In this document: one piece after another, positions 5,865-47,984 of the stretch
How the letters are laid out: the number at the start of each line of letters is the position of its first letter
How positions within the stretch are numbered: the stretch's first letter is position 1
DNA from: Dongia mobilis
Lineage (GTDB): Bacteria > Pseudomonadota > Alphaproteobacteria > Dongiales > Dongiaceae
Direction of reading: 5' to 3'
Length of the DNA: 64,000 nt
Assembly (NCBI RefSeq): GCF_004363235.1
Contig: NZ_SNYW01000006.1
Location: forward strand, 62,001-126,000
Made by a program: the position numbers and the translations under genes
Notes under the pieces: model-generated
What the model was told of the DNA's origin: nothing
Database searches by the model: none
What the model saw: the letters and a program-made list of their open reading frames with translations, nothing else

Positions 5865-5956
5865 ATTCTTGCTTCTGCGCCAAAGCAGACGATAAGCTCA
5901 GTGGCCGGCAAACGACCGCGTGACAAGGGCGGGCCGGCAGGGAGAGCGCAAGCGCC

Positions 5957-8698
5957 ATGCTGATCGAGACCAAGCTGCGGCCGCCGCATCTGCGTGCGGG
6001 GTTGATTGCCCGACCCCGGCTGATCCGCCAGCTTGACGGGGCACTGTCGGCGCGCCTTGCCGTGGTTTCGGCGCCGCCCGGTTTCGGCAAGAGCACGCTG
6101 CTCGGGCAATGGATCGCGGCCCTCAAGGGCCGCGACGCGGCGGTTGGCTGGCTGGCGCTGGACGGCGACGACAACGAGATCGGCCGGTTCCTGACCTATC
6201 TGGTGGCGGCAATCCAGCGCGCCGATCCGGCGATTGCCCGGCAGGTGCCGGTGATGATGCAGTCAAGCCCGCTGCTCCCGGTCGATTTCGTCCTGACATC
6301 GATCGTCAACGACCTTGCCCAGCGTTCCGGCCCGCTTTTCCTGGTGCTGGACGATTGCCAGTTCCTGGAAGCACCCGAGATCTGCCGCTTCCTCGACGCG
6401 CTGCTGACCTATGCGCCGGCCTGCCTGCATCTGGTGGTGGCGACGCGCGGTCCCTTGCCCTTCGGCCTCGCCAACATGCGGGTGAAGGGCCAGCTCATCA
6501 ATCTCGACGACATGCAGCTGCGCTTCTCGCTGGACGAGACGGAGAGTCTGCTCAACGAGGCCCAGGCCATGGATCTGCCGATGGCTGATCTGGTCACCCT
6601 GCAGCATCGCACCGAGGGCTGGGTCGCCGGCCTGCAGCTGGCCTCGCTCTCGCTCGAACAGCGCGCCGCGCGCGCCGATTTCATCCGCCATTTTTCGGGC
6701 AGCCAGCGCGAAATCGCCGAATTCCTGGCCGGGGACGTGCTGGATCGCCAGCCGCCGGAGATCTTCGCCTTCCTGGTGGAAAGCGCCATCCTCGATCGCC
6801 TCTCGGCGCCGCTCGCCGATGCCGTCCTGGGACGGCGCGACAGTGCCACCCTGCTGCGCGCGATCGAGGCGGCGAACCTGTTCCTGATCCCGCTCGATGC
6901 CGAGCGGCACTGGTTCCGCTATCACCATCTGTTCGCCGATTTCCTGCGCTCGCGCCTGGCAGCGACGCGCGATCCGGCGGCGATCGCAGCGCTCCATGCC
7001 CGCGCCGCCGACTGGCTCTCGGCCAACGGCTTCACCTCCGAGGCGGTGGCCCATGCCCTGGCGGCGGGGGAGGCCGACCGCGCCGCGGCCCTGGTCGAGG
7101 ATTGCGCCATGCCGCTCATCATGGCGAGCCATCTCAACACGGTGCGCGCCTGGCTGGCGCGCCTACCGCGCGATCTCATCGCCCGCCGGCCGAAACTGCA
7201 GCTGGCCGAGGTCTGGATTCAGTTCCACATGAGCCGCCCGCAAGAGGGTGCGCGCACGCTGCGGGCCGCCAAGCGCAATATCCGCGCCGCCATCGCGCAA
7301 GGCAGCCTTGCCGGTGCCGAGGCCGAAGCGATGCTGGCCGAATTGCGCACGCTCACTGCCGGCGTGATCTCGGCGGCAGACCGCTCCCGCTCGGCCCAGG
7401 CCTTCATCCGCCAGTGGCAGGACCAGGTGCCGGAAAGCCAGCCCTTCTTCAAGGGCACCATCGGCAATATCCTCGGCTTCTGCTCGCTTTCGCTGGGCGA
7501 CCTCGACGGCGCGCGTCTGGCCAGTCTCAGGGCGCGCGACACCCATGCGGCGGCGCAGTCGGTCTTCGGCGTGGTCTATTCCGACCTCATCCTGGGCCTC
7601 GCCGAAAAGGCGGCCGGCAATCTCCAGGGTGCCGCCGAGCTTTTCGCGCGGGCGACCCAGCAGGCCCGAGCCGAACTCGGCGCCGGCTCCTATGCCGAGG
7701 CGATGGTGGCGATCTTCGAGGTCGAGCTGCTCTATGAATGGAACGATCTGGGGGCGGCCGAGCGCCTGCTGCACCAGCATCGGCAGGTGATCGAGGAATG
7801 CGGCCTCGTCGTTCATGAAATGGCCTGCAAGCTGCACCTGGCGCGCCTCGCCGCCGCGCGCGGCCGCCATGACGAGGCAATGGCGGTGCTGGAACGGGCC
7901 GAGCGCCTCGGCATCGAAAAGCGCTATCACCGCCTCACCGCCGCCGCCCTCAACGAGCGCGTGCGCCTGCTGCTGAAGCGCGGCGATGTGGGGGCCGCAC
8001 GCTATGCACTGCTGGCCCGCGGCATTGATCCGGAGGCACGCCGGCCAGAGACGCGCCGGCCGGGCGCCGATCTGTCGCCTTCGACCGAGCCTGAATATCT
8101 GGCGCTCGCCCGGCTGCAGATCGCCGAAGCCAGGCCGCAGGCGGCACAGCGACTGCTCGATCAGGTTGCCGAAAAGATGCGTGCCGATGGGCGGTTGCGG
8201 CGCCTGGCCCAGGTGCGGGCGCTGTCCGCCATCGCCGCCTATCGCGCCGGCGATGCCCTGTCCGCGCTGGCGGCGGCGGTCGATGCGGTCGCGATCTGCG
8301 CGCCGCAGCGCGCCATGCGTACGCTCATCGACGAGGGGTCGGCGATGCGCGAGGTGATAGATTTTGCGCGCGGCCGCATGCCGAGCTGGTCCGGCGATAC
8401 GCCAGCCGGCAGCTATATCGAGGAATTGGGCCAGTTCTGCGAACGCGCCGAGCGCGCGCCGGCGCCGCGCGGCGGCCGCAGGGCGGATCCCGATTTCAGC
8501 CAGCGCGAGACCGAGGTCCTCCGCCTGCTCTCGGCCGGCCACAGCAACCGCGACATGGCGCGTGCCCTCGGCATGGCGCCCGACACCGTGAAATGGCACC
8601 TCAAGAACATCTTCGGCAAGCTCGGCGTCGCCAACCGCACCCAGGCGGTCTTGCGCCTGCAGCAGATCGGCCTTGGCGGGGAAGCAGCCAGGGGGTGA
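5957..8698 (+). CDS. Large ATP-dependent LuxR-type regulator (MalT/LAL-like)
   Basis: A 913-residue transcription factor. The N-terminal P-loop APPGFGKST (39-47) and a Walker B-like LFLVLDD give a STAND/AAA-type ATPase. A long alpha-helical TPR-like middle follows, and the last 70 residues form a LuxR helix-turn-helix (SQRETEVLRLLSAGHSNRDM, then VKWHLKNIFGKL). MalT-like proteins are switched on by an inducer plus ATP. The start is an ATG after GGGAGAGCGC. It lies between the amine-catabolic genes and the acetylpolyamine-amidohydrolase-like gene and is the obvious local activator candidate. A rho-independent terminator follows. Confidence 0.88.
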   Translation: MLIETKLRPPHLRAGLIARPRLIRQLDGALSARLAVVSAPPGFGKSTLLGQWIAALKGRDAAVGWLALDGDDNEIGRFLTYLVAAIQRADPAIARQVPVMMQSSPLLPVDFVLTSIVNDLAQRSGPLFLVLDDCQFLEAPEICRFLDALLTYAPACLHLVVATRGPLPFGLANMRVKGQLINLDDMQLRFSLDETESLLNEAQAMDLPMADLVTLQHRTEGWVAGLQLASLSLEQRAARADFIRHFSGSQREIAEFLAGDVLDRQPPEIFAFLVESAILDRLSAPLADAVLGRRDSATLLRAIEAANLFLIPLDAERHWFRYHHLFADFLRSRLAATRDPAAIAALHARAADWLSANGFTSEAVAHALAAGEADRAAALVEDCAMPLIMASHLNTVRAWLARLPRDLIARRPKLQLAEVWIQFHMSRPQEGARTLRAAKRNIRAAIAQGSLAGAEAEAMLAELRTLTAGVISAADRSRSAQAFIRQWQDQVPESQPFFKGTIGNILGFCSLSLGDLDGARLASLRARDTHAAAQSVFGVVYSDLILGLAEKAAGNLQGAAELFARATQQARAELGAGSYAEAMVAIFEVELLYEWNDLGAAERLLHQHRQVIEECGLVVHEMACKLHLARLAAARGRHDEAMAVLERAERLGIEKRYHRLTAAALNERVRLLLKRGDVGAARYALLARGIDPEARRPETRRPGADLSPSTEPEYLALARLQIAEARPQAAQRLLDQVAEKMRADGRLRRLAQVRALSAIAAYRAGDALSALAAAVDAVAICAPQRAMRTLIDEGSAMREVIDFARGRMPSWSGDTPAGSYIEELGQFCERAERAPAPRGGRRADPDFSQRETEVLRLLSAGHSNRDMARALGMAPDTVKWHLKNIFGKLGVANRTQAVLRLQQIGLGGEAARG

Positions 8699-35317: not shown

Positions 35318-36850
35318 TTAGTCGAGGCAGGACGCGATCCGGGACGCCCAGTTCCCGTCCGCCAGCCGGCGCTCGACCAGAGCGATGTCGGGTGCCAGGA
35401 AGCGGTCCGCATCATAGGCCGGGATTTCGGCCCGCAGGGTGCTATAGGCGGCCCGCGTGCCGCGGCCGGGGGCAAGGCCCGGATAGAATTCGAAGGCCTG
35501 GGCCGCCAGCAGGTATTCGATCGCCAGGATGCGCCGCGTATTGGCGATGATGTCGCCGCATTTGAGCGCCGACGGCGTGCCGAGGCTGATATGATCCTCC
35601 TGCTGGGCGGAGGTGATGAAATTGTCGGTCACCAGCGGCTGGGCGAGAAGCCGGTTCTCGGCGGCAAGCGAGGCTGCCGCGTATTGCGCGATCATCATGC
35701 CGGAATTGACCCCGGGCTCGGCCACCAGGAAGGGCGGCAGGGTCGAGGTCGCCGGATTGATCAGGCGGTCGAGGCGCCGTTCGGCGATGCCGCCCAGTTC
35801 CGCCATCGCCATGCCGAGGAGGTCCATGGCAAGCGCTAGGCTCTGGCCATGCGGATGGGCGTTGGAGATGACCCGGTAGGCTTCGGGCGAGCCCAGCACC
35901 AGCGGGTTGTCGGTGGCCGAGCCAAGTTCAATCTCGATCTGGCGGCGGACATGGTCGATCTGGTCGCGGGCGGCGCCATGGACCTGGGGGATGGCGCGGA
36001 TCGAGAGCGCGTCCTGGGTGCGACAGCCCTGGTGCCTAGCGACGATCTCGCTGTCCTTCAGCAGCGCCCGCAACCGTGTACCCACACGCAGCAGGCCGGG
36101 ATGCGGTTTCAGCGCTAGGAGATCCGGATCAAAGGCGGCGATCTGGCCCTTCAGCGCCTCGAAGCTCATGGCGGCGGTGACGTCGGCCCAATCGGCCAGC
36201 AACTCGGCCTCGGCCAAGGCGAGGGCGGCCAGCCCGGTCAGGCAGCGCGTGCCGTTGACGAGGCAGAGTCCGTCCTTGGCGCCAAGCGTTACCGGGGCGA
36301 GACCGGCGGCGGTGAGCGCGGTCGCCGCCGGCATGGTTTTTCCGTCGACGGCGGCATCGCCGATGCCGATGAGTGCCAGGCCGATATGGGCGCCATGGGT
36401 GATGTAGCCGACCGAACCCCGGCGCGGGACAACCGGTGTCACGCCGGTATTGAGCAGCGCCACCAATTGATCGACCACCGCCGGCGACACGCCGGAATGG
36501 CCGTGGGCGAGATCATTCACCAGGGACGCCATGATGGCGCGGGTGGCGGCGATGGGTAGGGCCTCGCCCACGCCGCAGGCATGGCTCATCAGCGTGTTGC
36601 GGGAAAGCTGCGCCTGCTGTGCGCCCGAGAGCACGATGTCGGAGAGCGCACCCAAACCGGTGCTGATGCCATAGGCGCGCTCGCCCTTGGCGATGATCCG
36701 CTCGACAATGGCGCGGCCGTTGCGCAGGCGGGCCTGGCTGGTGGCGTCCAGCGCGAGCTCGGCTTCGCCCCGGGCGATGGCGGCCAATTCGCGATAGGTC
36801 AATGCACCCTCACCCCGCGAGATCGTTGCCTTGTCGCCCATCCTTGCCAT
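35318..36850 (-). CDS. Histidine/aromatic ammonia-lyase homologue lacking the MIO triad
   Basis: A 510-residue member of the HutH/PAL fold. The N-terminal active-site tyrosine loop AYGISTGLG is kept, as is GSVG. However, the Ala-Ser-Gly that cyclises to the MIO cofactor is replaced by Tyr149-Ile150-Thr151 (GSVGYITHGAHIGLALIG), with a three-residue shortening relative to the usual GSVGASGDLAPLAH. The rest of the frame is intact and full length, so it is a diverged enzyme rather than a pseudogene. Conventional ammonia-lyase chemistry should be impossible; a MIO-independent reaction is inferred. An ATG at 36841 is an alternative start. A perfect palindrome overlaps its promoter, and a PhyH oxygenase is divergent. 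Confidence 0.88.
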   Translation of the reverse strand: MARMGDKATISRGEGALTYRELAAIARGEAELALDATSQARLRNGRAIVERIIAKGERAYGISTGLGALSDIVLSGAQQAQLSRNTLMSHACGVGEALPIAATRAIMASLVNDLAHGHSGVSPAVVDQLVALLNTGVTPVVPRRGSVGYITHGAHIGLALIGIGDAAVDGKTMPAATALTAAGLAPVTLGAKDGLCLVNGTRCLTGLAALALAEAELLADWADVTAAMSFEALKGQIAAFDPDLLALKPHPGLLRVGTRLRALLKDSEIVARHQGCRTQDALSIRAIPQVHGAARDQIDHVRRQIEIELGSATDNPLVLGSPEAYRVISNAHPHGQSLALAMDLLGMAMAELGGIAERRLDRLINPATSTLPPFLVAEPGVNSGMMIAQYAAASLAAENRLLAQPLVTDNFITSAQQEDHISLGTPSALKCGDIIANTRRILAIEYLLAAQAFEFYPGLAPGRGTRAAYSTLRAEIPAYDADRFLAPDIALVERRLADGNWASRIASCLD

Positions 36851-36866
36851 CCAATCTGATTACCTT

Positions 36867-36884
36867 TACCTGTATATACAGGTA
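36867..36884. promoter_or_regulatory. Perfect 18-bp HutC/GntR-like operator
   Basis: TACCTGTATATACAGGTA is a perfect palindrome between the divergent lyase-like and PhyH genes, 17 bases from the lyase start. Its core GTATATAC fits the HutC-subgroup GntR consensus (GT-N-TA-N-AC). A possible minus-strand promoter (TTGCTC, 17 bases, TATACA) would have its -10 within the palindrome. No GntR gene lies next to it. Confidence 0.65.
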
Positions 36885-37006
36885 CTGACAGGCGAGCAAG
36901 CCGGGCTGGCATGAGCTTTTCGAAAGCCGCCGTGAGCATAGGGGCGGGGGTTTGCGCGGCGGGCACCGATTTGGCAGGGTTGCGGCGAACCTGATCGGAA
37001 ATCGCC

Positions 37007-37804
37007 ATGCAGATCACGCAACAGCAGATCGATTGCTACCGGGAAGACGGCGCCATCCTCCTCAGGGGCGTCTTTTCGGACTGGGTCGAGCGCCTGCGCG
37101 CCGGTGTCGCGCGCAACATGCAGGAGCCCGGCCCCCATGGGGCTGAAAATGTGCGGCCCGGCGATGGCGGCGGCCGGTTCTTCGACGATTACTGCAACTG
37201 GCAGCGGATTCCGGAATTCACCGATTTCGTGCTGAATTCCCCCGCCGCCGCGATCGCCGGTCGGCTGATGGCGAGTGATGCTGCGCAGATCTTCCACGAC
37301 CATGTGCTGGTGAAGGAGCCGGGCACCCCGAAAAGAACGCCCTGGCACCAGGACATGCCCTATTACTGTGTCGACGGCATGCAGACCGGCAGCTACTGGA
37401 TCCCGCTCGATGCGGTCACATCCGAAAACACCCTGCGCCTCGTCCTCGGTTCGCATCTCTGGCCGCGGCTGGTGCGGCCGAAACGCTGGGCGGGCGGCGA
37501 GGATTTCTACGCCGATGCAGCGCAGTTCATGGACATGCCGGATGTCGAGGGCGGCCACTATCGCATCCTGGAGCCGGCGCTGGAGCCCGGCGACGCGATC
37601 CTCTTCAACTTTCGCACCGTCCACGGCGCCAACGGCAATGCCGGGCCGGCGCGGCGGCGCGCCTTTTCCTGCCGCTTCCTCGGCGACGACGCGGTCTATG
37701 CCGAGCGGCCCGGCCGCACCTCGCCGCCCTATCCCGGCATCAACCAGCGGCGCGGCGAGCGTCTGCGCGAAGATTGGTTCCCGATTGTCTGGACCGCTGC
37801 CTGA
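37007..37804 (+). CDS. PhyH-family Fe(II)/2-oxoglutarate-type dioxygenase
   Basis: A 265-residue jelly-roll oxygenase. The facial triad is visible as HQD (His114, Asp116 in TPWHQDMPYY) and His206 (FRTVHGAN), with the 2-oxoglutarate arginine in the 217-219 run. Family members hydroxylate small molecules such as phytanoyl-CoA, ectoine or amino acids. The start is an ATG at 37007 with only a weak ribosome binding site (CGGAAATCG). It is transcribed away from the MIO-less lyase and may share its operator. Substrate unknown. Confidence 0.88.
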   Translation: MQITQQQIDCYREDGAILLRGVFSDWVERLRAGVARNMQEPGPHGAENVRPGDGGGRFFDDYCNWQRIPEFTDFVLNSPAAAIAGRLMASDAAQIFHDHVLVKEPGTPKRTPWHQDMPYYCVDGMQTGSYWIPLDAVTSENTLRLVLGSHLWPRLVRPKRWAGGEDFYADAAQFMDMPDVEGGHYRILEPALEPGDAILFNFRTVHGANGNAGPARRRAFSCRFLGDDAVYAERPGRTSPPYPGINQRRGERLREDWFPIVWTAA

Positions 37805-37893
37805 TCATGTGGCCGGCTTGCCATAGCCTGACAAAGCGGGCAGCCTCGCCGGAGGCCTCGGCAGCAATCGGGAGTTGGATTCTGCGCGGATCG

Positions 37894-38673
37894 ATGCATG
37901 GCCTGATCCTGGGTCTTATCCTTGCGCTCGGCAGTCCGGCCGCGCTGGCGGAAGAACCCGTCCTGCATCTGGCCTATACCGACCAGGAATCGCCCTTCTT
38001 TGTCATGGGCAATGGCCGCGACATTCCTGCCATGCCCGGCATTGCCGTGGAAATCGCCAAATCCGCGGCCAAGACCTGCGGGGTCGCCTTGAGGCCGGAG
38101 CGTTTTCCCGGCGGGCGCCTGCTGGCGCTGCTTGAAAGCAATGCTGTGGATTCGGTGCTGATGCTGTCCTTCGCGCCTGAGCGCCAGCGCATCGCCGTCT
38201 ATCCGATGGCGGGCGATGCGGCCGATCCGGCCTTGCAGCTGGCGACACTCAGCTATGCCTTCTACGTAAGAAAGGGGAGTGCCGTCAGTTGGGACGGCAG
38301 CGCGCTGAACGGCGCCTTGCGGCCGGTCGGCGCCAATCTCGGCTGGTCGATCGTGAACGATCTCAGAAATGCCGGCATTGCGGTCGAAACGGCGCAGGAC
38401 ACGCGCAACAATTTCAACAAGCTGTTGGGCGCGCGCATCGACGCCTTCGCCATCCAGAGCTCGATCGGCGACCCCTATCTCGAGCGCAACGGCATCGACG
38501 ACCGAATCGCCCGCCTGGAGCCGCCGATTTCGTCAAAGCCCTATTTCCAGGTATTCAGTCACGCTTGGCACCAGGCCCATCCCGATGCGGCCGCCTGCCT
38601 GTGGCGCGAAGCTGCCGCGCTCCGCGAGCGCGACATGCCCGCCCTGCTGTCGCGCTATCATGATTCGATGTAG
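37894..38673 (+). CDS. Secreted amino-acid-type solute-binding protein (SBP_bac_3-like), orphan
   Basis: A 259-residue protein with a Sec signal peptide (hydrophobic LILGLILALG, then a PAALA-EE cleavage site). The mature fold looks like a family 3 periplasmic binding protein: an IAVEIAKSAAKTCG segment near the start and a second lobe ending in a short helical tail. The ATG at 37894 is picked because the signal peptide starts there; the frame is open to 37774. There are no permease or ATPase genes beside it, so it may serve a distant transporter or act as a sensor domain. Confidence 0.7.
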   Translation: MHGLILGLILALGSPAALAEEPVLHLAYTDQESPFFVMGNGRDIPAMPGIAVEIAKSAAKTCGVALRPERFPGGRLLALLESNAVDSVLMLSFAPERQRIAVYPMAGDAADPALQLATLSYAFYVRKGSAVSWDGSALNGALRPVGANLGWSIVNDLRNAGIAVETAQDTRNNFNKLLGARIDAFAIQSSIGDPYLERNGIDDRIARLEPPISSKPYFQVFSHAWHQAHPDAAACLWREAAALRERDMPALLSRYHDSM

Positions 38674-38686
38674 GCCCTGCCGGGGA

Positions 38687-40198
38687 TCAATCGTGCAGCC
38701 GGTCGAGGTCGTCGTAGAGTGCTTGGGAATGGCGATAGAGCCGATCGAACACCGGCTGCATGCGCTGGTAGGTCTCGGCCCAGCGGGGATCGGGCAGCAC
38801 CTCGCCGACATGCGTGACAAATGAACCGGCCGCCGCATCGATCCGGCTGAAGCGGCCGGTTGCGGTGGCGGCCATGGCGGCGCAGCCGATGATGCCGCAT
38901 TCGGCCTCGCGCGGAATCACGATCGGGATGTTGTAGGCGCTGGCCTTGATCTTCAGCCAGAGCGGCGTCTTGGCGCCGCCGCCCGATGCGATGACCCGTT
39001 CGAGGCGGTGCCCGCAAGCCTGCTCCATGATGCGGATATGGCGCGTGACCGCCAGGGCCACCCCTTCCATCACCGCGCGGTGGAGATGCGCCAGCCCGTG
39101 CTCCGCCGTGATGCCGAAGAACTGGGCACGGGAATTGCGATGCTTGCCGAACCGTTCGCCGGTCAGATAAGGCAGGAAGAAGAGGCGCTCCGATCCGGCC
39201 GGTGCGTTTGCCGCCTGCTCGACGATGGCGGCGTAATCGAGGCTGCGTTCGTGAAAGGCGCGCCGCGCCCAGCGCATGGCGTCGCCGCCCGATTCCAGCA
39301 GCACGAAACCACCCCAGCCGCCTTCCACCGTGCCGATATTGGAAATCTCGGCATCCAGCAGCGGCCGGTCGGCATTCAAGGTAATGATGGCAGAGGTACC
39401 GGTGACATCGGAGCCGAGGCCGGGCCGCGTGACGCCGGAGCCCAGCAGGGCAACCGGGAAATCGCCGGCCCCCACCAGGACGGGCAGGCCCTGGGGCAGG
39501 CCGGTTTCGATGGCAGCGGCGGCGGTAACCGACCCCAGGATGTCGAGCGGCCGGCGGATCGGCGCCAGTTTCGCGCGGTCGAGTTGAAGGAGGTCGCACA
39601 TCTTCTGCGACCACGTGCCGGTCCTGGGGTCCATCAGGAAGGAGCAGGCGGCCTCGGTCCGGTCCATGGCGATCTCGCCGGTCAGGCGGAAATTGATGAA
39701 ATCCTTGGGCATCACCACGGAAGCTGCCGACCGATAGGCCGGCGCATCGTGATCGCGCAGCCATTGCAGCTTGAAGGCCGGCCAGGCCGGTGTCGGCGGA
39801 TTGCCGCTGTCGGCAATATAATCGGCAACCCGGTATTGGGTCTCGAAGGCCCTTACCAGTTCGCTCGTGCGCTTGTCGTTCCAGAGCGGAATGTTGGGCC
39901 GCGTCAGCCGGCCGGTATCGTCCAGCAATACCGTGCCGTGCATCTGGCCGCAGGCACAAAGGGCGGCGATGCGCCCTTTCGCTTCCGGCGCTGCCGCCAG
40001 CACGTCGCGGATCGCCCGGACGACGCCCGTCCACCAATTCTCCGCCCTCTGCTCCGACCAGCCATATTGCGGCACGATCTGGTCGTGCTCATGGGCGGCG
40101 AGGTGTTGGATCCGGCCCGCCTCGTCGACCAGGGCGGCGCGAACGCTGCCGGTGCCGACATCGATGGTGAGATACAGATCGCCCGCCACGCCTGCCAT
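38687..40198 (-). CDS. FGGY-family carbohydrate kinase (xylulokinase-like)
   Basis: A 503-residue two-domain sugar kinase. The first ATP-phosphate motif is LYLTIDVGTGSVRAALVD (8-25), followed by ACGQMHGTVLLDD and GAGDFPVALLGSG. The second-domain signature is ASGGGAKTPLWLKIKASAYN. Such kinases phosphorylate ketoses, polyols or related sugars. The ATG at 40198 has AAGGA directly against it; a GTG at 40189 would have better spacing. It is divergent from the isomerase-aldolase operon, and an RpiR-type operator lies 20 bases upstream. It is the likely entry kinase of the cluster. Confidence 0.87.
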   Translation of the reverse strand: MAGVAGDLYLTIDVGTGSVRAALVDEAGRIQHLAAHEHDQIVPQYGWSEQRAENWWTGVVRAIRDVLAAAPEAKGRIAALCACGQMHGTVLLDDTGRLTRPNIPLWNDKRTSELVRAFETQYRVADYIADSGNPPTPAWPAFKLQWLRDHDAPAYRSAASVVMPKDFINFRLTGEIAMDRTEAACSFLMDPRTGTWSQKMCDLLQLDRAKLAPIRRPLDILGSVTAAAAIETGLPQGLPVLVGAGDFPVALLGSGVTRPGLGSDVTGTSAIITLNADRPLLDAEISNIGTVEGGWGGFVLLESGGDAMRWARRAFHERSLDYAAIVEQAANAPAGSERLFFLPYLTGERFGKHRNSRAQFFGITAEHGLAHLHRAVMEGVALAVTRHIRIMEQACGHRLERVIASGGGAKTPLWLKIKASAYNIPIVIPREAECGIIGCAAMAATATGRFSRIDAAAGSFVTHVGEVLPDPRWAETYQRMQPVFDRLYRHSQALYDDLDRLHD

Positions 40199-40217
40199 TC
40201 CTTCGTCATGTTAGAAA

Positions 40218-40232
40218 AGTAACATAACTACA
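40218..40232. promoter_or_regulatory. Second, imperfect RpiR-type operator near the FGGY kinase start
   Basis: AGTAACATAACTACA matches 11 of 15 positions of the perfect site at 40323-40337 and keeps the right half intact (AACTACA). It lies 20 bases upstream of the kinase start codon, a natural position to repress the minus-strand gene. Confidence 0.4.
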
Positions 40233-40301
40233 AAATTCTCCGCGTCAATCTCCGGAATTTTGAGATTCTTCGATGCAGCGCAACAAATGGAAGGTGATTT
40301 A

Positions 40302-40330
40302 TTGACTCTCGGTTGCCAAAAATGTAGTAA
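40302..40330 (+). promoter_or_regulatory. Promoter of the isomerase-aldolase operon
   Basis: TTGACT (40302-40307), 17 bases, then TAGTAA (40325-40330). The -10 hexamer lies inside the perfect inverted repeat at 40323-40337, so a repressor bound there would block RNA polymerase. Confidence 0.5.
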
Positions 40331-40337
40331 AACTACA
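40323..40337. promoter_or_regulatory. Perfect RpiR/HexR-like operator TGTAGT-AAA-ACTACA
   Basis: A 6-3-6 perfect inverted repeat located 15 bases before the isomerase start codon. It fits the general RpiR/HexR pattern TGTA-N7-TACA. The MurR/RpiR regulator gene at the end of the same operon (44413-45288) is the obvious candidate to bind it. Confidence 0.7.
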
Positions 40338-40351
40338 GAAAGTGAGGAAGC

Positions 40352-40975
40352 ATGATCCCCGAACCGCGACTCTGCCAGGTCGATCTCAGCAGCGGCACGA
40401 TGCAGGGTGCCACCGGGCGCTACCAGAAGAAGCTGAAGGACCTGGCCGGGCTCTATGCCGACGCGGCCGCTTTCGCCGCGCGCGTCGCGGAGGCGGGCGA
40501 GGACATCGTCTATGACGTGGCGGATTTCCACCCGGAAGGGAAAACCGGCGATCTCATTTTCGGAGTGACGCGCATGTCGCCGGGTCTTGTCGGCGACGAA
40601 TTCTTCATGACGCGCGGCCATATCCATGGCCGGGCCGACCGGCCCGAGATCTATTTCGGCCAGAAGGGGCTGGGCCTTATGCTGCTAGAATCGCCCGATG
40701 GCGAGACGCGCGTGCTGCAGGTGGCGCCGCTGAGCATCTGCTACGTACCGCCCTTCTGGATCCATCGCTCGATCAATATCGGCACGGAAGACCTGGTCAT
40801 GCTGTTCACCTATCCCGCCGATGCAGGCCAGGATTACGGCATCATTGAAAAATCCCATGGCATGCGCCACCGCGTGATGCGGGACGGCGCCAATGGTTGG
40901 CGCCTGGTGGAGAATCCCGCCTACCGCTCGCGTTCGCCGGAAACGATTGCCGCCCTGCTGCATTCGGCGGCCTGA
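40352..40975 (+). CDS. Cupin-type (class II) phosphoglucose isomerase homologue
   Basis: A 207-residue single-domain cupin. The metal signature is H-x-H-x6-E (GHIHGRADRPEIYF: His90, His92, Glu99) with His138 (FWIHRS), as in archaeal and some bacterial cupin-type glucose-6-phosphate isomerases. It should interconvert an aldose phosphate and a ketose phosphate, using Fe or another divalent metal. Start after GTGAGGAAG. It is first in a six-gene run ending in the RpiR regulator. The cluster's true substrate may be a sugar other than glucose-6-phosphate. Confidence 0.85.
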   Translation: MIPEPRLCQVDLSSGTMQGATGRYQKKLKDLAGLYADAAAFAARVAEAGEDIVYDVADFHPEGKTGDLIFGVTRMSPGLVGDEFFMTRGHIHGRADRPEIYFGQKGLGLMLLESPDGETRVLQVAPLSICYVPPFWIHRSINIGTEDLVMLFTYPADAGQDYGIIEKSHGMRHRVMRDGANGWRLVENPAYRSRSPETIAALLHSAA

Positions 40976-40990
40976 GAGGAGATAGCCACC

Positions 40991-41638
40991 ATGACCGCCC
41001 CCATCGAGATCATCCGCCGGACCGGCATCGTGCCCGTGATCGCCATCGAGCGCGCGCAGGATGCCGTGCCGCTGGCCGACGCGCTGCTCGAAGGCGGGCT
41101 GCCAGTGGCGGAGATCACCTTTCGCACGGCGGCGGCGGCCGATGTCATCGCCGCCATGCACGAGAAGCGGCCTGAGCTTTGCGTCGGTGCCGGCACGATC
41201 CTCGACCAGGCCTCGCTCGCTGCCGCGATCAAGGCGGGCGCCGCCTATGGCCTTGCCCCGGGCTTCGATGCCGCCATCGTCGCAGCGGCAAAGGCGGCGG
41301 GCTTTCCATTCGCGCCCGGCATCATGACGCCGAGCGACCTCACTGCGGCCGCCGCTGCCGGCTGCCGGCTAGTCAAGTTCTTCCCGGCTGGCCCCGCCGG
41401 CGGACCCGGCTTTCTGCAGGCGATCTCGGCGCCCTTTGCCCATCTCGGCATCTCGGTCATCCCGACCGGCGGTGTCACGGAGGAGAACCTGGCGGATTGG
41501 CTGAAACTGAAAGCGGTGGTTGCAGCGGGCGGCACCTGGGTCGCGCGCACCGAGGATATCACCGCCGGCAATTTCGCCGAGATCACGCGCCGCGCCAGAT
41601 CGGCGGTCGCCGCAGTCGCGCGGGCGCGCGGAAACTGA
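40991..41638 (+). CDS. KDPG/KHG-type 2-keto-3-deoxy sugar-phosphate aldolase
   Basis: A 215-residue class I aldolase of the Eda family. The Schiff-base lysine is Lys129 in CRLVKFFPA and the catalytic glutamate is Glu41 in AEITFRT. The phosphate loop IPTGGVTEEN is also present. The family splits 2-keto-3-deoxy-6-phospho-sugar acids into pyruvate and a triose (phosphate). It starts after GAGGAGATAG, 15 bases after the isomerase gene, and the following gene starts 1 base after its stop. It implies an Entner-Doudoroff-like end step for this cluster. Confidence 0.88.
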   Translation: MTAPIEIIRRTGIVPVIAIERAQDAVPLADALLEGGLPVAEITFRTAAAADVIAAMHEKRPELCVGAGTILDQASLAAAIKAGAAYGLAPGFDAAIVAAAKAAGFPFAPGIMTPSDLTAAAAAGCRLVKFFPAGPAGGPGFLQAISAPFAHLGISVIPTGGVTEENLADWLKLKAVVAAGGTWVARTEDITAGNFAEITRRARSAVAAVARARGN

Positions 41639-41639
41639 C

Positions 41640-42584
41640 ATGGCCTACCAGCCGGCGACGCACCCGACCCTCTATTTCATCGGCGTCACCACGACGTCGT
41701 CCTCGATCATGAAAGTGTTTCCGGCCTGGGCGGCACATCTTGGCCTCGCCAATGCCGTACTGAATGGGATCGATTTTCCGATCCATGCCGACCCGGCCGC
41801 CTATCGAGAAGCGGTCGATTTCATCAAGCGCGATCCCTTGTCGCTGGGGGCCCTGGTCACGACCCACAAGATCGACCTGTTTGCCGCTGCCCGCGATCTC
41901 TTCGACGAGATCGACCCCTACGCGCAGTTGATGGGAGAGACCAGCTGCATCTCGAAGCGTGGCGACCGACTGATCGCCCATGCCAAGGACCCAATCTCCT
42001 CTGGCCTTGCCATCGAGAGCTTCCTGCCGGCGGATCACTTTGCGCGGATGGGCGCGGAAGTTTTCGCCATCGGGGCCGGCGGCTCCACCATCGCCATAAC
42101 CTGGTATCTGATGCAGGCCGGGCGCGGTGCCAATCGTCCCCGCCGCATCATCGTCGCCGATCCTGACGCGCATCGGTTGGCGGAGATCCGCCGCATCCAT
42201 GGCACGATCGGCAGCGACATCGCCGTCGACTACGTGGCCAGCAGCGGTGACGCCAATGACCGCATCCTGGCCGAGCTGAGGCCGGGCAGCCTTGTCATCA
42301 ACGCAACCGGCCTCGGCAAGGATCGGCCCGGCTCACCGCTTTCCGATGCTGCCGTCTTCCCCGAAGGCGCCATTGCCTGGGACCTCAACTACCGCGGCGA
42401 CCTGGTTTTTCTGCGGCAAGCGGCGGCACAGCAGGGGCGAGGGGTCACCCCGGTCGATGGCTGGACCTATTTCCTGCATGGCTGGACGCAGGTGATCGGC
42501 GAAGTCTTCGCCGTCGAGATACCGACCACCGGCAAGGAATTCGACGCGCTTTCCGATATCGCCATCCAGGCCGCGAAGGGATAG
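41640..42584 (+). CDS. Shikimate/quinate dehydrogenase-family oxidoreductase of unusual specificity
   Basis: A 314-residue member of the shikimate dehydrogenase fold. The substrate half keeps the catalytic lysine (VTTHKIDLF, Lys77) and an aspartate (AHAKDPISSG, Asp115), and the nucleotide half has FAIGAGGSTIA. The usual NTDG motif is replaced by AKDP, and SSIMKVFPAW stands where SLSP-type residues bind shikimate, so shikimate is unlikely. A sugar or polyol-derived acid is more plausible given the neighbours. It begins 1 base after the aldolase stop and is therefore tightly coupled to it. Confidence 0.75.
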   Translation: MAYQPATHPTLYFIGVTTTSSSIMKVFPAWAAHLGLANAVLNGIDFPIHADPAAYREAVDFIKRDPLSLGALVTTHKIDLFAAARDLFDEIDPYAQLMGETSCISKRGDRLIAHAKDPISSGLAIESFLPADHFARMGAEVFAIGAGGSTIAITWYLMQAGRGANRPRRIIVADPDAHRLAEIRRIHGTIGSDIAVDYVASSGDANDRILAELRPGSLVINATGLGKDRPGSPLSDAAVFPEGAIAWDLNYRGDLVFLRQAAAQQGRGVTPVDGWTYFLHGWTQVIGEVFAVEIPTTGKEFDALSDIAIQAAKG

Positions 42585-42588
42585 GGGC

Positions 42589-43548
42589 ATGAGCGAGCAG
42601 GGCCGCCCGAGGATTCTGGTGACGCCGCGTTCCCTCACCATGGGCGCGCATCCGGATCTTGCCCCTTTGCGCATGGCCGGCTTCGAGATCGTGACCGCGA
42701 CGCCCGGACAATTGCCGGGCGAGGCGGAACTTATGCGACTGCTGCCGGATTGCGTCGGCTGGCTGGCGGGGATCGAACCGGTTTCCGCGGCCGTGATCGC
42801 GGCGGCCAGCCGGTTGCAGGTGGTAAGTCGCAACGGTACGGGCATCGACAATTTGCCGGTGGAGGAAATGCGCCGGCGCGGCATCCGTATCGCCACCGCC
42901 GGAGCCGCGAATGCGCCGGGTGTGGCCGAACTGGCCCTGGCACTCATTCTCGCCGGCCTCCGCCATATACCCTTGGGCGATCGCGGCATCCGTGGTGGTG
43001 ATTGGCCGCGGCGACGCGGGCGCGAATTGCGCGACCGCAGGGTGGCGGTAATCGGCTGCGGGGCCATCGGCGGCGAGGTGGCGCGCCTTCTGGTGGCACT
43101 CGGCGCAGAGGTGGTGGGCTTCGACCCGAAGCCGCGCGATCTCGGCCTCGCCCCGGATCACTTTCGCTGGGTGGAACTGGATGCGGCACTGGCGACCGCC
43201 GATATCATCACGCTGCATTGTCCGTTGCAGCCGGGCGGTGCGCCCCTGCTGGACGCACGGCGCCTCGCCGCGCTGCGGCCGCAGGCGATCATCGTCAATA
43301 CGGCACGCGCCGGGCTGATCGACGAGGCAGCCATGCTGGATGCACTCGAACGCGGCGCCGTCGAGGCCTATGCGACCGACGTCTATGCCGAGGAACCGCC
43401 GCGCGACCTTGCCCTGGCCACGCACGAACGCGTCATCTCGACCAGCCATATCGGCGGCTTCACCGACGAAAGTGTCGCGCGTGCGACCAGGATCGCGGTC
43501 GACAATTTGCTGGCCGTGCTTGCGCCGAAGGTGGCTCATGCCGGCTAG
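42589..43548 (+). CDS. D-isomer 2-hydroxyacid dehydrogenase (phosphoglycerate dehydrogenase-like)
   Basis: A 319-residue two-domain NAD-dependent dehydrogenase. The dinucleotide loop is GCGAIGGEVARLL (157-169), and the catalytic triad Arg240 (NTARAGLIDE), Glu268/269 (DVYAEEPP) and His287 (STSHIGGFT) is intact. It lacks the C-terminal ACT domain of SerA, so it is one of the shorter hydroxyacid dehydrogenases. It lies 4 bases after the shikimate-dehydrogenase-like gene. It probably oxidises or reduces a hydroxy/keto acid intermediate of the sugar route. Confidence 0.87.
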   Translation: MSEQGRPRILVTPRSLTMGAHPDLAPLRMAGFEIVTATPGQLPGEAELMRLLPDCVGWLAGIEPVSAAVIAAASRLQVVSRNGTGIDNLPVEEMRRRGIRIATAGAANAPGVAELALALILAGLRHIPLGDRGIRGGDWPRRRGRELRDRRVAVIGCGAIGGEVARLLVALGAEVVGFDPKPRDLGLAPDHFRWVELDAALATADIITLHCPLQPGGAPLLDARRLAALRPQAIIVNTARAGLIDEAAMLDALERGAVEAYATDVYAEEPPRDLALATHERVISTSHIGGFTDESVARATRIAVDNLLAVLAPKVAHAG

Positions 43549-44416
43549 GCTGGCAGCACACCCGCGAACCGCACCGCTCGGGGCCCATCTCGCGGCGGCT
43601 CCCGGAATGGATCTCTGCCTGCATTGGCTGGGGCAGGCGGGCTTCGTGATCGAGGGGGCGGGAAAGCGCCTGGTGATCGATCCCTATCTTTCGGATTCGC
43701 TCGCCCGGAAATATGCCGGCCGGCTCTATCCGCATCAACGCCTGATGGCCGCCCCGGTGGGTTCGCTGGAACTGGGGTCGGTCGACCTCGTGCTTTCCAC
43801 CCATCAGCATACCGATCACATGGACCCGGATACGCTGGCCCCTCTGATGGCGCAGCAGCCGCACCTCAAGCTGGTGGCACCGCGCGCCGCGCGAGAGGAA
43901 GCGCTGCGCCGGGCACGGGTCGACGACACGCGCCTCCATCTCGTCGAAGCCGGCGAGCGCATTGTTCCCATCCCCGGCATCGCCGTCACCGCGACGCGCG
44001 CCGCCCATGAATCACTGGAGCGCGATGCCGACGGCAATCACAGATTCCTCGGTTATGTGATCGAGATCGCGGGCTGCCGCATCTGGCATGCCGGGGACAC
44101 CGTGCCCTTTGACGGCATGGTCGCGGAAGTGGCGGCACTCAAGCCCGATATCGCGCTGCTGCCGGTCAACGGGCGCAGCGCCACCCTGCTGGCGAACGGC
44201 GTGCCGGGCAATCTGGCGCTGGACGAGGCGATTGCCGTCGGCCGCGATGTAGGGGCAGGGGCGATCATCGCCCATCACTTCGGCATGTTCGACTTCAATA
44301 CCGCCGATCCCACGGCCATCGACCAGGCGGCGACGCAACTGGCGAAGTCGGGGGACGGACCGATGCTCTTTCGCGCCGCGCTTGAAACGGCCTATCGCCG
44401 GGAGCCCAACCCATGA
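43538..44416 (+). CDS. UlaG-like metallo-beta-lactamase-fold hydrolase
   Basis: A 292-residue MBL-fold protein. The metal motif H-x-H-x-D-H is clear (STHQHTDHMD: His89, His91, Asp93, His94), followed by IWHAGDTVPFDG and IIAHHFGMFD. It is similar in outline to UlaG (L-ascorbate-6-phosphate lactonase), so a sugar lactonase role is an attractive inference. The ATG at 43538 has AAGGTGGCTC before it and overlaps the dehydrogenase gene by 11 bases. The stop shares ATGA with the regulator gene. Confidence 0.85.
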   Translation: MPARLAAHPRTAPLGAHLAAAPGMDLCLHWLGQAGFVIEGAGKRLVIDPYLSDSLARKYAGRLYPHQRLMAAPVGSLELGSVDLVLSTHQHTDHMDPDTLAPLMAQQPHLKLVAPRAAREEALRRARVDDTRLHLVEAGERIVPIPGIAVTATRAAHESLERDADGNHRFLGYVIEIAGCRIWHAGDTVPFDGMVAEVAALKPDIALLPVNGRSATLLANGVPGNLALDEAIAVGRDVGAGAIIAHHFGMFDFNTADPTAIDQAATQLAKSGDGPMLFRAALETAYRREPNP

Positions 44417-45288
44417 GCGAGATCCACCCCAATAGTCAGAATGTGCTGGAGGCCATCCGCCGCCAGCTCGGCCAGCTGCGCAAGTCCGATCGCAAGGTGG
44501 CGGATGCAATCCTCGCCGATCCGCAACGCTTTCTCGCCGCGACCGTGGCCGACACCGCTCATACCGCCGGCGTCAGCCAGCCGACTGTTATCCGCTTCGC
44601 GACGGCGATCGGCTGCAACGGCTTCCAGGATTTCAAGCTGCGCCTGGCCCAGGCGCTGGCGCTGGGCACACCGGCAACGCATTCCGTCCTGCTGGAGACG
44701 GACGGGCCGGAAACCGTGTTCGAGAAAATATTCGACTATACGATCAGCAGCCTGGACTGGACCCGCAAGCGCATCGACACACTGGCGGTGGCGCGGGCGA
44801 TCGACATCCTGACCACGGCCAGGGCGATCGATTTCTTCGGCTTCGGCGCCTCCGGCATCGTGGCGCAGGACGCGCAGCAGAAATTCCCACTCTTCGGCGT
44901 GCCTTGCGGGGCGCCGGCCGATCTCCACCAGCAGGTCATGGTGGCCTCGATGATGCAGCCGGGGCATGTCGCCGTCGTCATATCCAATACCGGCACGACG
45001 CCCTCGATGATCGATGTCGCGAGGCTGGCCCGCCAGAACGGGGCCCGCGTCATCGGTCTCATCGGCACCACGCCGGCGCCGCTCATCGCCCATTGCGACG
45101 TCGCCATCGTCATCGAAACCCTGGACAACACCAACGACTACACGCCCACCATCTCGCGCCTCGCGGCCCTAGCCGTGATCGACGTGCTGTCGACCGCGGT
45201 CGGGTTGCGGCGGGACCCCACCTACCGCAATCGGGTCGCCGTGATGAAGCGGCGCCTCCAGGCCTATCGCGGTTCCACGACGACGTGA
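44413..45288 (+). CDS. MurR/RpiR-family transcription regulator
   Basis: A 291-residue regulator with an N-terminal RpiR-type helix-turn-helix (VADTAHTAGVSQPTVIRFAT) and a C-terminal SIS sugar-phosphate-binding domain (AIDFFGFGASGIVAQDAQQK and AVVISNTGTTPSMIDVARLA). Such proteins sense phosphosugars and usually repress the adjacent catabolic operon. It overlaps the MBL gene by 4 bases. The TGTAGT-AAA-ACTACA palindrome in the cluster promoter is its likely binding site. Confidence 0.92.
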   Translation: MSEIHPNSQNVLEAIRRQLGQLRKSDRKVADAILADPQRFLAATVADTAHTAGVSQPTVIRFATAIGCNGFQDFKLRLAQALALGTPATHSVLLETDGPETVFEKIFDYTISSLDWTRKRIDTLAVARAIDILTTARAIDFFGFGASGIVAQDAQQKFPLFGVPCGAPADLHQQVMVASMMQPGHVAVVISNTGTTPSMIDVARLARQNGARVIGLIGTTPAPLIAHCDVAIVIETLDNTNDYTPTISRLAALAVIDVLSTAVGLRRDPTYRNRVAVMKRRLQAYRGSTTT

Positions 45289-45426: not shown

Positions 45427-45433
45427 TCGCATT
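45415..45433. promoter_or_regulatory. Perfect 19-bp Fur box
   Basis: AATGCGAAT-A-ATTCGCATT is a perfect 9-1-9 inverted repeat with the architecture of the classical Fur box (compare AATGAGAAT-N-ATTCTCATT). It covers the -10 of the exbB promoter, so iron-loaded Fur should repress the TonB energy-transducing operon. Confidence 0.8.
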
Positions 45434-45518
45434 GCGTGTGCCGGCGCAGCATGGCTTTATGCAGCGCCGTCCGCAATCGCCGTTTGCAATCCCTGGCAGC
45501 AGCCAACTGGATGAATTA

Positions 45519-46505
<987 letters not shown>

Positions 46506-46519
46506 GGCGAGGGCCTAGC

Positions 46520-46999
46520 ATGGCAATTCGCCTCAATCATGGTCCAGCGGGCGAGGATCTTGCCGAAACCCACGAGATCAACGTCACCCCCTTCATCGAC
46601 GTGATCCTGGTCCTGCTGATCATCTTCATGGTGGCGGCACCCTTGTCGACGGTCGACGTGCCGGTCGATCTGCCGGCGGCCAGTGCGCAGCCACAGCCGC
46701 GCCCGGAGGCGCCGCTCTTCGTCACCATCGGGGCTGACCTTGCGCTCAGCCTCGGCAACGAACAAATTCCGCGCGACCTTCTGGGCGACGAGATTGCCGC
46801 CGCGACCGGGGAAGACAAGGAAACCCGCATCTTCCTGCGCGCCGACGAGAAGGTCGATTACGGCGAGGTGATGCAGGTCATGAACCTGCTGCGCCAGGCC
46901 GGCTATCTCAAGATCGCCCTGGTGGCGCTGGAGCAGACCGGCAGCGCCAGCCCGCAATTGCCGGCCGGCGCGGCGACGCCGCCATCGGCGGCGCAGTGA
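46520..46999 (+). CDS. exbD: ExbD/TolR-family proton channel subunit
   Basis: A 159-residue protein with one membrane helix containing the proton-relaying aspartate Asp27 (INVTPFIDVILVLLIIFMV), then a periplasmic domain (LFLRADEKVDYGEVMQVMNL region). It forms the proton-driven motor with ExbB and TonB in the inner membrane. It lies 14 bases after exbB. Confidence 0.92.
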   Translation: MAIRLNHGPAGEDLAETHEINVTPFIDVILVLLIIFMVAAPLSTVDVPVDLPAASAQPQPRPEAPLFVTIGADLALSLGNEQIPRDLLGDEIAAATGEDKETRIFLRADEKVDYGEVMQVMNLLRQAGYLKIALVALEQTGSASPQLPAGAATPPSAAQ

Positions 47000-47009
47000 G
47001 GGCCGGACC

Positions 47010-47984
47010 GTGGCGAGCCTGCGCATGCGCTGCCCAGCCCTCTCGGTCGAACGGCGCCGTCATCGCCTCGGCCGCTGGCTGGGTGCCGCCGTCCTCATCT
47101 TCGGCATCCACGTCTCCGGTGCCGCTCTCGGCATGATGCAGTGGCGCGAACCAGCCGGCGTACCGGCGCCGCTTCCGGCAGCGATCATGATCGACCTCGC
47201 GCCCGTCGCTGCCACGCCGCCGCCACCACCCCCGACCGCATCACCCGACAGGGCCGCGCTTGTTGAAGAGCCTGACGCCATTCCACCGGAATCGGTCGAA
47301 CTGCCGCCGCTCGCTGAATTGCTCGAACTGCCGCCGCCGCTCCCCGAAATCGAGCCAGAGGTGGCTGTGCCGGCCAAGACCGAGCATAAGAAGGAGCAGA
47401 AAAAGTCGGCCGAGAAGAAGGGCAAGCAGAAAGCCGACAAGCAATCGGCCGACAAGAACAGGACTGAAATAACGAAAATGGATCAGGCCGTCGCCGCGGC
47501 GAAGATCGCCGCCGATGAGGCGCAGGAGAAGGCCTTCAAGACCGCCGGCGAGGCCATGTCCGAGACCAGGGCCGAAGTGACCCAACCAGAACAGCAGGCC
47601 GGCCTGCCGGCCGGTTCCAGGTCAACTGCCCCGGGTGCTGCTGCCTCCGGTGCTGCTGACTCGGGCGCCGCCGATCTGGCGACAAGCCAGGCCGCGCAGG
47701 CATCCTGGGAAGGCCTTGTCCTTTCGCATATCGAGCGGTTCAAGAAATATCCCCGCGTCGCCAAGCGCCGCAACCAGGAAGGGATGCCGGTGGTCGCTTT
47801 CGTCATCGATCGCGCCGGCAATATCAAGAACGCCTATCTGGTGCAGAGTTCCGGCCACGATTCTCTTGACGAGGAAGCAATGGCCACCTTGCGCCGCGCC
47901 GAGCCGCTGCCCGCACTTCCCCCGGAAATGGCCGGTACCACGGTCACCCGCTCCGTGCCGATCCGCTTCAACCTGAAGGATTGA
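47010..47984 (+). CDS. tonB: TonB energy-transducing protein
   Basis: A 324-residue TonB. A short cytoplasmic N-terminus and one membrane anchor (LGAAVLIFGIHVSGAALGMM) are followed by a proline-rich linker (PPPPPPTAS), a Lys/Glu-rich stretch (about residues 125-150) and the C-terminal TonB domain with KKYPRVAKRR and GNIKNAYLVQSSGHDSLDEE. The GTG at 47010 is the start used; an ATG at 47025 is possible. It transmits proton-motive force to TonB-dependent receptors, none of which lies in this window. Confidence 0.9.
   Translation: MASLRMRCPALSVERRRHRLGRWLGAAVLIFGIHVSGAALGMMQWREPAGVPAPLPAAIMIDLAPVAATPPPPPPTASPDRAALVEEPDAIPPESVELPPLAELLELPPPLPEIEPEVAVPAKTEHKKEQKKSAEKKGKQKADKQSADKNRTEITKMDQAVAAAKIAADEAQEKAFKTAGEAMSETRAEVTQPEQQAGLPAGSRSTAPGAAASGAADSGAADLATSQAAQASWEGLVLSHIERFKKYPRVAKRRNQEGMPVVAFVIDRAGNIKNAYLVQSSGHDSLDEEAMATLRRAEPLPALPPEMAGTTVTRSVPIRFNLKD

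Follow-up and report, generated by a model that had tools for sequence, protein, structure and literature searches.

A conserved sugar-catabolic gene cluster of Dongia mobilis, probably ending in KDPG and joined to the Entner-Doudoroff route through its aldolase

Our analysis concerns a window of 64,000 nucleotides from Dongia mobilis (NZ_SNYW01000006.1, positions 62,001-126,000; genome G000, with the siblings G001, G003 and G006), in which a divergent cluster of seven genes lies at 38687-45288. The gene of an FGGY-family kinase is read leftward, and those of a cupin-type phosphoglucose isomerase (PGI), an aldolase, a shikimate-dehydrogenase-like (SDH-like) enzyme, a 2-hydroxyacid dehydrogenase (2HD), a metallo-beta-lactamase-fold (MBL) hydrolase and an RpiR-family regulator are read rightward; all are open frames, and the six genes on the + strand are spaced as a single operon. 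This cluster is probably a sugar-catabolic branch that ends in 2-keto-3-deoxy-6-phosphogluconate (KDPG) under HexR/RccR-type control, and its aldolase would also complete the housekeeping Entner-Doudoroff (ED) route.

The grouping of these genes is not due to chance, since the same neighbours recur in 89 loci of the SDH-like gene, which comprise the best 80 of its 189 relatives in the species-genome collection, 5 plasmid loci, the 3 siblings and the window. Presence was counted in the 78 loci that are well flanked, the other 11 being dropped for short flanks: the kinase was found in 75, PGI in 73, RpiR in 67, MBL in 61, 2HD in 54 and the aldolase in 42, together with a GlcD-like flavin adenine dinucleotide enzyme in 11 and a protein like 3-hexulose-6-phosphate synthase (HPS) in 8. 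A gene was called present by tblastn at E 1e-15 over half of the query with an identity of at least 40%, so that the weaker PGI of locus L097 (38%) is uncounted; several MBL queries began at 43523, five codons ahead of the ATG at 43538. These results bear out the initial annotation, which had grouped the seven genes under an RpiR regulator of their own, and support its view of a catabolic unit for a phosphorylated sugar or polyol.

The cluster aldolase and the housekeeping Entner-Doudoroff genes

The aldolase gene (40991-41638, + strand) encodes a KDPG (Eda-type) aldolase, which scored 195 bits with PF01081 and 214.7 bits with TIGR01182 (cut-off 156). The Schiff-base lysine and the FFPA and PTGG motifs are present, and residues K129, F131-A133 and P158-G161 are conserved. 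From this sequence the enzyme is predicted to cleave KDPG into pyruvate and glyceraldehyde-3-phosphate. G000 has two PF01081 matches, that of the cluster aldolase and a weak one of 103 bits on contig C10, beside a gene that a reading by eye assigns to the DgoK-type kinases. In each of G001, G003 and G006, a strong Eda (201-209 bits) lies near edd, the weak type is also present, and the cluster is without an aldolase. Among the 28 genomes searched, only G000 is without a PF01081 match of at least 154 bits outside the cluster.

The dehydratase Edd is encoded at G000:C1:530684-532480 (TIGR01196, 985 bits), about 423 kb from the cluster on the same contig. In G001 and G006, zwf, a pgl-like gene, edd, a glk-like gene and eda form one run; in G000, the first four genes keep the sibling order, and 32 bp after glk stands the gene that in G001 comes after eda. 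Thus the run zwf-pgl-edd-glk of G000, which lies outside the window (G000:C1:529707-534709, locus L113), is without the eda of these siblings. The operon itself was read in G001 and G006, and G003 was compared by match coordinates; pgl and glk of G000 were assigned by visual reading and from their homology to the sibling genes, and Edd by its own model.

The cluster aldolase shares 38% identity with the sibling Eda versus 60-73% with nearly all cluster aldolases elsewhere, the exceptions being those of L096 (52%) and L097 (48%). In the simplest history, two redundant KDPG aldolases were once present and each lineage lost a different one, which suggests that the cluster aldolase is a working KDPG aldolase. 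In G000 it appears to be the only enzyme able to finish the ordinary ED route. The initial annotation had held that a missing dehydratase sets the cluster apart from that route, a claim that fails: Edd is encoded on the same contig, and the cluster holds the one strong Eda-type aldolase of G000. Its statement that the cluster fits no standard route stands for the xylulose and ascorbate pathways but not for the ED route, to which the cluster appears joined in metabolism though unlinked in place. A natural swap of the housekeeping aldolase for that of the cluster would offer a direct in vivo handle on the cluster product, and a search for eda in its usual operon only would wrongly call the ED pathway of G000 broken.

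The regulator and its operators

The regulator gene (44413-45288, + strand) encodes an RpiR-family protein, HexR/RccR-like, with the HTH_6 plus SIS architecture; its nearest solved sequences are 8k3b and 8ju9. A perfect palindromic operator, TGTAGTAAAACTACA, lies at 40323-40337 and ends 14 bp before the PGI start codon, and a degenerate copy with two mismatches to TGTARTNNNAYTACA lies at 40218-40232, just upstream of the kinase start, in agreement with the shared operators proposed by the initial annotation. The site at 40323-40337 is the sole perfect one in G000. It places a TGTAGT/ACTACA operator at the target promoter, as in HexR/RccR systems, and matches at every position one of the two published 15-bp RccR sites before Pseudomonas aceE (PMC5489143).

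Similar sites recur in the relatives. Among palindromic words ahead of the PGI gene in 77 loci, TGTA-N7-TACA ranks first (26 loci; 0 in one shuffled set). When up to one mismatch is allowed, TGTARTNNNAYTACA has 51 sites in the 82 loci where a PGI was called, versus 1 in a single letter-shuffle of the 89 loci (1.47 Mb). Such a site stands at the promoter of PGI in 34 of the 68 loci that have RpiR versus 1 of the 14 that do not, 10 of these 14 belonging to one Mesorhizobium clade. The loci that gave the motif are also those in which it was counted; the match to the published RccR site is the independent check on it.

In Pseudomonas, KDPG is bound by RccR and reduces the protein's affinity for the 15-bp aceE-type site (PMC5489143). 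By analogy, KDPG may be the effector of the cluster regulator. The repressor would occupy the divergent promoter region until rising KDPG releases it.

Cluster enzymes and the way into KDPG

The kinase (38687-40198, - strand) is xylulokinase-like and a probable ketose kinase; it scored 326 bits with the XylB model (cut-off 380.25) and 178 bits with the gluconokinase model (cut-off 649). The cupin PGI (40352-40975, + strand; PF06560, 191 bits) resembles the Pyrococcus/Thermococcus enzyme at about 150 bits over near full length and keeps its metal ligands (H90, H92, E99 and H138, invariant in an alignment of 80) and most of its pocket residues. In contrast to that enzyme, its pocket is altered: where the Pyrococcus (Pfu) PGI has His158, 78 of the 80 cluster PGIs have Gln, and in the remaining two the motif was not found. 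Gln also stands there in the core PGI of S. meliloti, and His in the divergent Shinella copy of L097. All 18 cluster genomes tested have the cupin PGI, a few of them with the gene moved or split, whereas none of 6 cluster-free relatives has it; an ordinary PGI is present in all 24. On this distribution a mere duplicate of PGI was rejected, which suggests that the role of the enzyme is not simply the exchange of fructose 6-phosphate (F6P) and glucose 6-phosphate (G6P); it should do something that the ordinary PGI does not. In the genome of L043 the gene extends over two frames (G066:C2:191068-191567), as by a frameshift or assembly error. A phage search with PGI gave one partial match only.

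The SDH-like gene (41640-42584, + strand) encodes a presumed sugar-phosphate dehydrogenase. The protein has no Pfam match at E 0.001, and among NCBIfam models it gives only weak AroE-type matches far under their cut-offs, the best at 38.2 bits (cut-off 413). Its predicted structure has the two-domain SDH fold, with a predicted local distance difference test value (pLDDT) of 89.9 and a predicted template-modelling score (pTM) of 0.83. The model matches 3tnl with a VIA Z score of 26.6 (root-mean-square deviation 3.0 over 274 residues) and the 5-ketofructose reductase 7cok with 24.8. In Foldseek, 7cok is the top match (E 1.1e-15), with ordinary shikimate dehydrogenases at E 4.1e-15; the same reductase is also among the phmmer matches (E 0.016). 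The protein thus shares the superfamily fold and, in a motif alignment made by eye, the catalytic Lys77/Asp117 pair, but it is only 13-22% identical to these proteins in the structural rows shown, and its shikimate-binding motifs are changed, as the initial annotation had noted. The pocket is conserved yet altered, with Lys116 and Arg252 invariant, neither of which is known to be a feature of AroE.

The 2HD (42589-43548, + strand) is a D-2-hydroxyacid dehydrogenase like phosphoglycerate dehydrogenase, with the catalytic Arg/Glu/His kept. The MBL-fold hydrolase (starting at 43607 or at the ATG at 43538, and ending at 44416, + strand) keeps the HxHxDH motif and is presumed to be a lactonase; the curated UlaG model gives it 33 bits (cut-off 306). 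It was found nowhere in 9 of 18 cluster genomes searched, a set picked mostly for absence of 2HD.

We infer the substrates and the order of the reactions as follows. A ketose, which in the relatives would probably come from an imported hexitol by way of polyol dehydrogenases, would be phosphorylated by the FGGY kinase and isomerised by the cupin PGI to an aldose-6-phosphate. The SDH-like enzyme would oxidise this to a lactone, the MBL hydrolase would open the lactone, and the product would be converted to KDPG, which the aldolase would split into pyruvate and glyceraldehyde-3-phosphate. In G000 the same aldolase would serve the zwf-pgl-edd-glk operon that is without eda.

The conversion to KDPG is the weakest link and stands outside our overall confidence in this scheme. 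The aldolase is present in 42 of 54 well-flanked loci with 2HD versus 0 of 24 without it; on the SDH tree about 5/6 independent pairs agree with this pairing and none disagree (median p 0.06). A GlcD-like enzyme is present in 7 of the 24 loci without 2HD versus 4 of the 54 with it, but their mutual exclusion is not significant on the tree, where GlcD differs in about 1/6 independent pairs. Both tests ran on a quick tree with several long branches. The 14 genomes searched, in which no 2HD had been found at the cluster locus (that of L038 being incomplete), hold no close copy elsewhere (identity at most 39%). If GlcD replaces 2HD, the step is the oxidation of a 2-hydroxy acid, and a 2-hydroxy acid oxidised to the substrate of a KDPG aldolase would be a 3-deoxy-aldonate-6-phosphate. 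We favour, as unproven, oxidation of this compound by 2HD over the action of the distant Edd.

This leads to a tentative route without a dehydratase, which we consider possible though more apt to be wrong than right. A 3-deoxyketohexose or 3-deoxyhexitol such as 3-deoxyfructose would be phosphorylated, then isomerised by PGI. Oxidation at C1 would fall to the SDH-fold enzyme, opening of the lactone to MBL, and oxidation at C2, directly to KDPG, to 2HD or the GlcD-like enzyme. The route employs all six cluster enzymes. 3-Deoxyfructose is formed by reduction of 3-deoxyglucosone, a product of glycation; such a route would consume glycation by-products. Two observations argue against it: 15 of the 78 loci hold, of the six enzymes, only the kinase, PGI and the SDH-like enzyme, and MBL was undetected in half of the 18 genomes mentioned above.

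A doubtful alternative, to which we give somewhat less credence, starts from a C3-epimeric hexitol or ketohexose (D-altritol/talitol, allitol or D-allulose). The kinase, PGI, SDH-like enzyme and lactonase would yield the C3 epimer of 6-phosphogluconate, and the housekeeping Edd would convert it to KDPG by dehydration, in which the C3 stereochemistry is lost, leaving 2HD a side role. This would account for the loci with the kinase, PGI and SDH-like enzyme only, and it agrees with the presence of Edd above cut-off in 53 of 54 cluster genomes, the exception being a 2.7-Mb metagenome bin. The two cluster binding proteins tested also point this way, their best PDB match by far being 4RY9 (E 5.8e-110 and 4.8e-117), a D-talitol complex, as does the one short-chain dehydrogenase/reductase (SDR) tested, whose matches are a putative polyol dehydrogenase and galactitol dehydrogenase. 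However, the epimer leaves unexplained 2HD, its presence in 42 of 42 loci with the aldolase, and the GlcD-like enzymes, and the action of Edd on it is hypothetical. It is unlikely that the SDH-like enzyme instead reduces a diketo sugar or the phosphate of one, like the Gluconobacter 5-ketofructose reductase, so that keto sugars are salvaged into F6P/G6P: 7cok is indeed its best Foldseek match and the phmmer match agrees, but ordinary shikimate dehydrogenases match equally well in Foldseek and better by Z score, and a second, non-redundant PGI, the lactonase, 2HD and the aldolase would have no explanation. Slightly less likely still is oxidation at C3, as by shikimate dehydrogenase, yielding a 3-keto sugar acid phosphate or 3-hexulose phosphate that is then split or rearranged. 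In 8 of the 78 loci, all of Mesorhizobium and without MBL, 2HD and aldolase, genes like HPS and 6-phospho-3-hexuloisomerase (PHI) indeed stand divergent to PGI-SDH-FGGY; yet they represent one evolutionary event in one clade, and neither the window cluster nor the other 69 well-flanked loci have an HPS-like gene. An ordinary xylulose, gluconate or ascorbate pathway is very unlikely. The kinase is nearest to XylB among named families and MBL has its weak match to UlaG, but the XylB, gluconokinase and UlaG scores all fall below their cut-offs, and a pentulose kinase needs neither PGI nor a KDPG aldolase. These three pathways were dropped on the unmet cut-offs, upholding the initial annotation as to xylulose and ascorbate; the sulfoquinovose, apiose and erythritol routes were also dropped, none of their signature enzyme sets being seen in the cluster.

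Several results weigh against a KDPG-ending branch under HexR/RccR-type control. The regulator scored 266.8 bits with the HexR model NF008451, below the cut-off of 296, and its presumed binding of KDPG rests on family and operator. The one-mismatch pattern is not enriched genome-wide in G000 (3 sites forward versus 17 for the backward control), and no operator within two mismatches was found in the zwf regions read in G000, G001 and G006. In Pseudomonas, KDPG raises the affinity of RccR for a second, 28-bp site type (PMC5489143). The Edd count fits the reading, yet it covered 54 of the 84 cluster genomes and comes from cluster-carrying genomes only. The 15 of 78 loci without MBL, 2HD, aldolase and GlcD, 8 of which have the HPS/PHI-like genes, are unexplained by a linear scheme. 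Finally, neither a transporter nor a polyol dehydrogenase of the cluster type lies near the window copy or the three sibling loci, and no close relative of the cluster binding protein was found genome-wide (best identity 28% in G000 and 33% in the siblings). This lack suggests that in the genus of the window the sugar enters another way or arises inside the cell.

Distribution, related systems and neighbouring genes

Our search confirmed the 189 relatives of the SDH-like protein in the species-genome collection and a further 15 plasmid records. Of the 41 genomes in a kinship-weighted set, 4 have the gene, and these 4 belong to the window's own genus. Relatives of the cluster occur in many alpha- and some betaproteobacteria, among them soil and plant bacteria. 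Across the 89 loci, an RbsA-type transport ATPase accompanies the cluster in 56, the matching binding protein in 55, an SDR of one type in 57 and an iron-type polyol dehydrogenase in 28. Ten Mesorhizobium loci, among them L078 (at 5907-7057), carry HPS-like and PHI-like genes of the ribulose monophosphate type that are divergent from PGI-SDH-FGGY. Locus L042, from a record titled Mycobacterium sp. KBS0706, has the gene order of the Inquilinus locus L052 and, where it extends, of L038; the organism name is probably wrong.

The cluster resembles the Pseudomonas ED system in its KDPG aldolase, its HexR-like regulator, the identical 15-bp RccR site (PMC5489143) and the logic of kinase, isomerase, dehydrogenase and lactonase. 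In contrast, it is without homologues of zwf, pgl and edd, with their presumed roles falling to the cupin PGI, SDH fold and MBL fold; it has an additional 2HD, and its operator is local and was not seen at zwf. A core locus on pSymB of S. meliloti combines an FGGY kinase, a galactitol-1-phosphate dehydrogenase-like enzyme, an ATP-binding cassette transporter and a cupin PGI. Its binding protein is 91% and its PGI 76% identical to the counterpart in the R. leguminosarum cluster L095. Unlike the cluster, two such loci gave no match at E 1e-5 to the SDH-like enzyme, MBL, 2HD, aldolase or RpiR, and the kinase is 27% identical to that of the window. PGI matches 47 Sinorhizobium plasmid records, of which two of this SDH-less core type (L120 and L121) were read.

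Our literature search found no description of the cluster, nor of 3-deoxyfructose with KDPG, D-talitol binding proteins or 5-ketofructose reductase relevant to it. Judging from the sequences compared, the cluster is probably a conserved, undescribed sugar pathway feeding into KDPG, and the SDH-like enzyme would belong to a clade for which that search found no description. If so, nitrogen-fixing and plant-associated bacteria would have a new entry into the ED route, and the shikimate dehydrogenase superfamily would gain a new enzyme class.

The genes adjoining the cluster were also read. At 35318-38673 of the window lie a histidine-ammonia-lyase-like gene, a PhyH dioxygenase gene and a binding-protein-like gene without a Pfam match; the same three stand beside the cluster in two siblings (L098 and L100), and no functional link was seen. 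The cluster is followed directly, at 45432-47984, by what a visual reading suggests are the genes of ExbB, ExbD and TonB; the sibling loci have other genes in this place.

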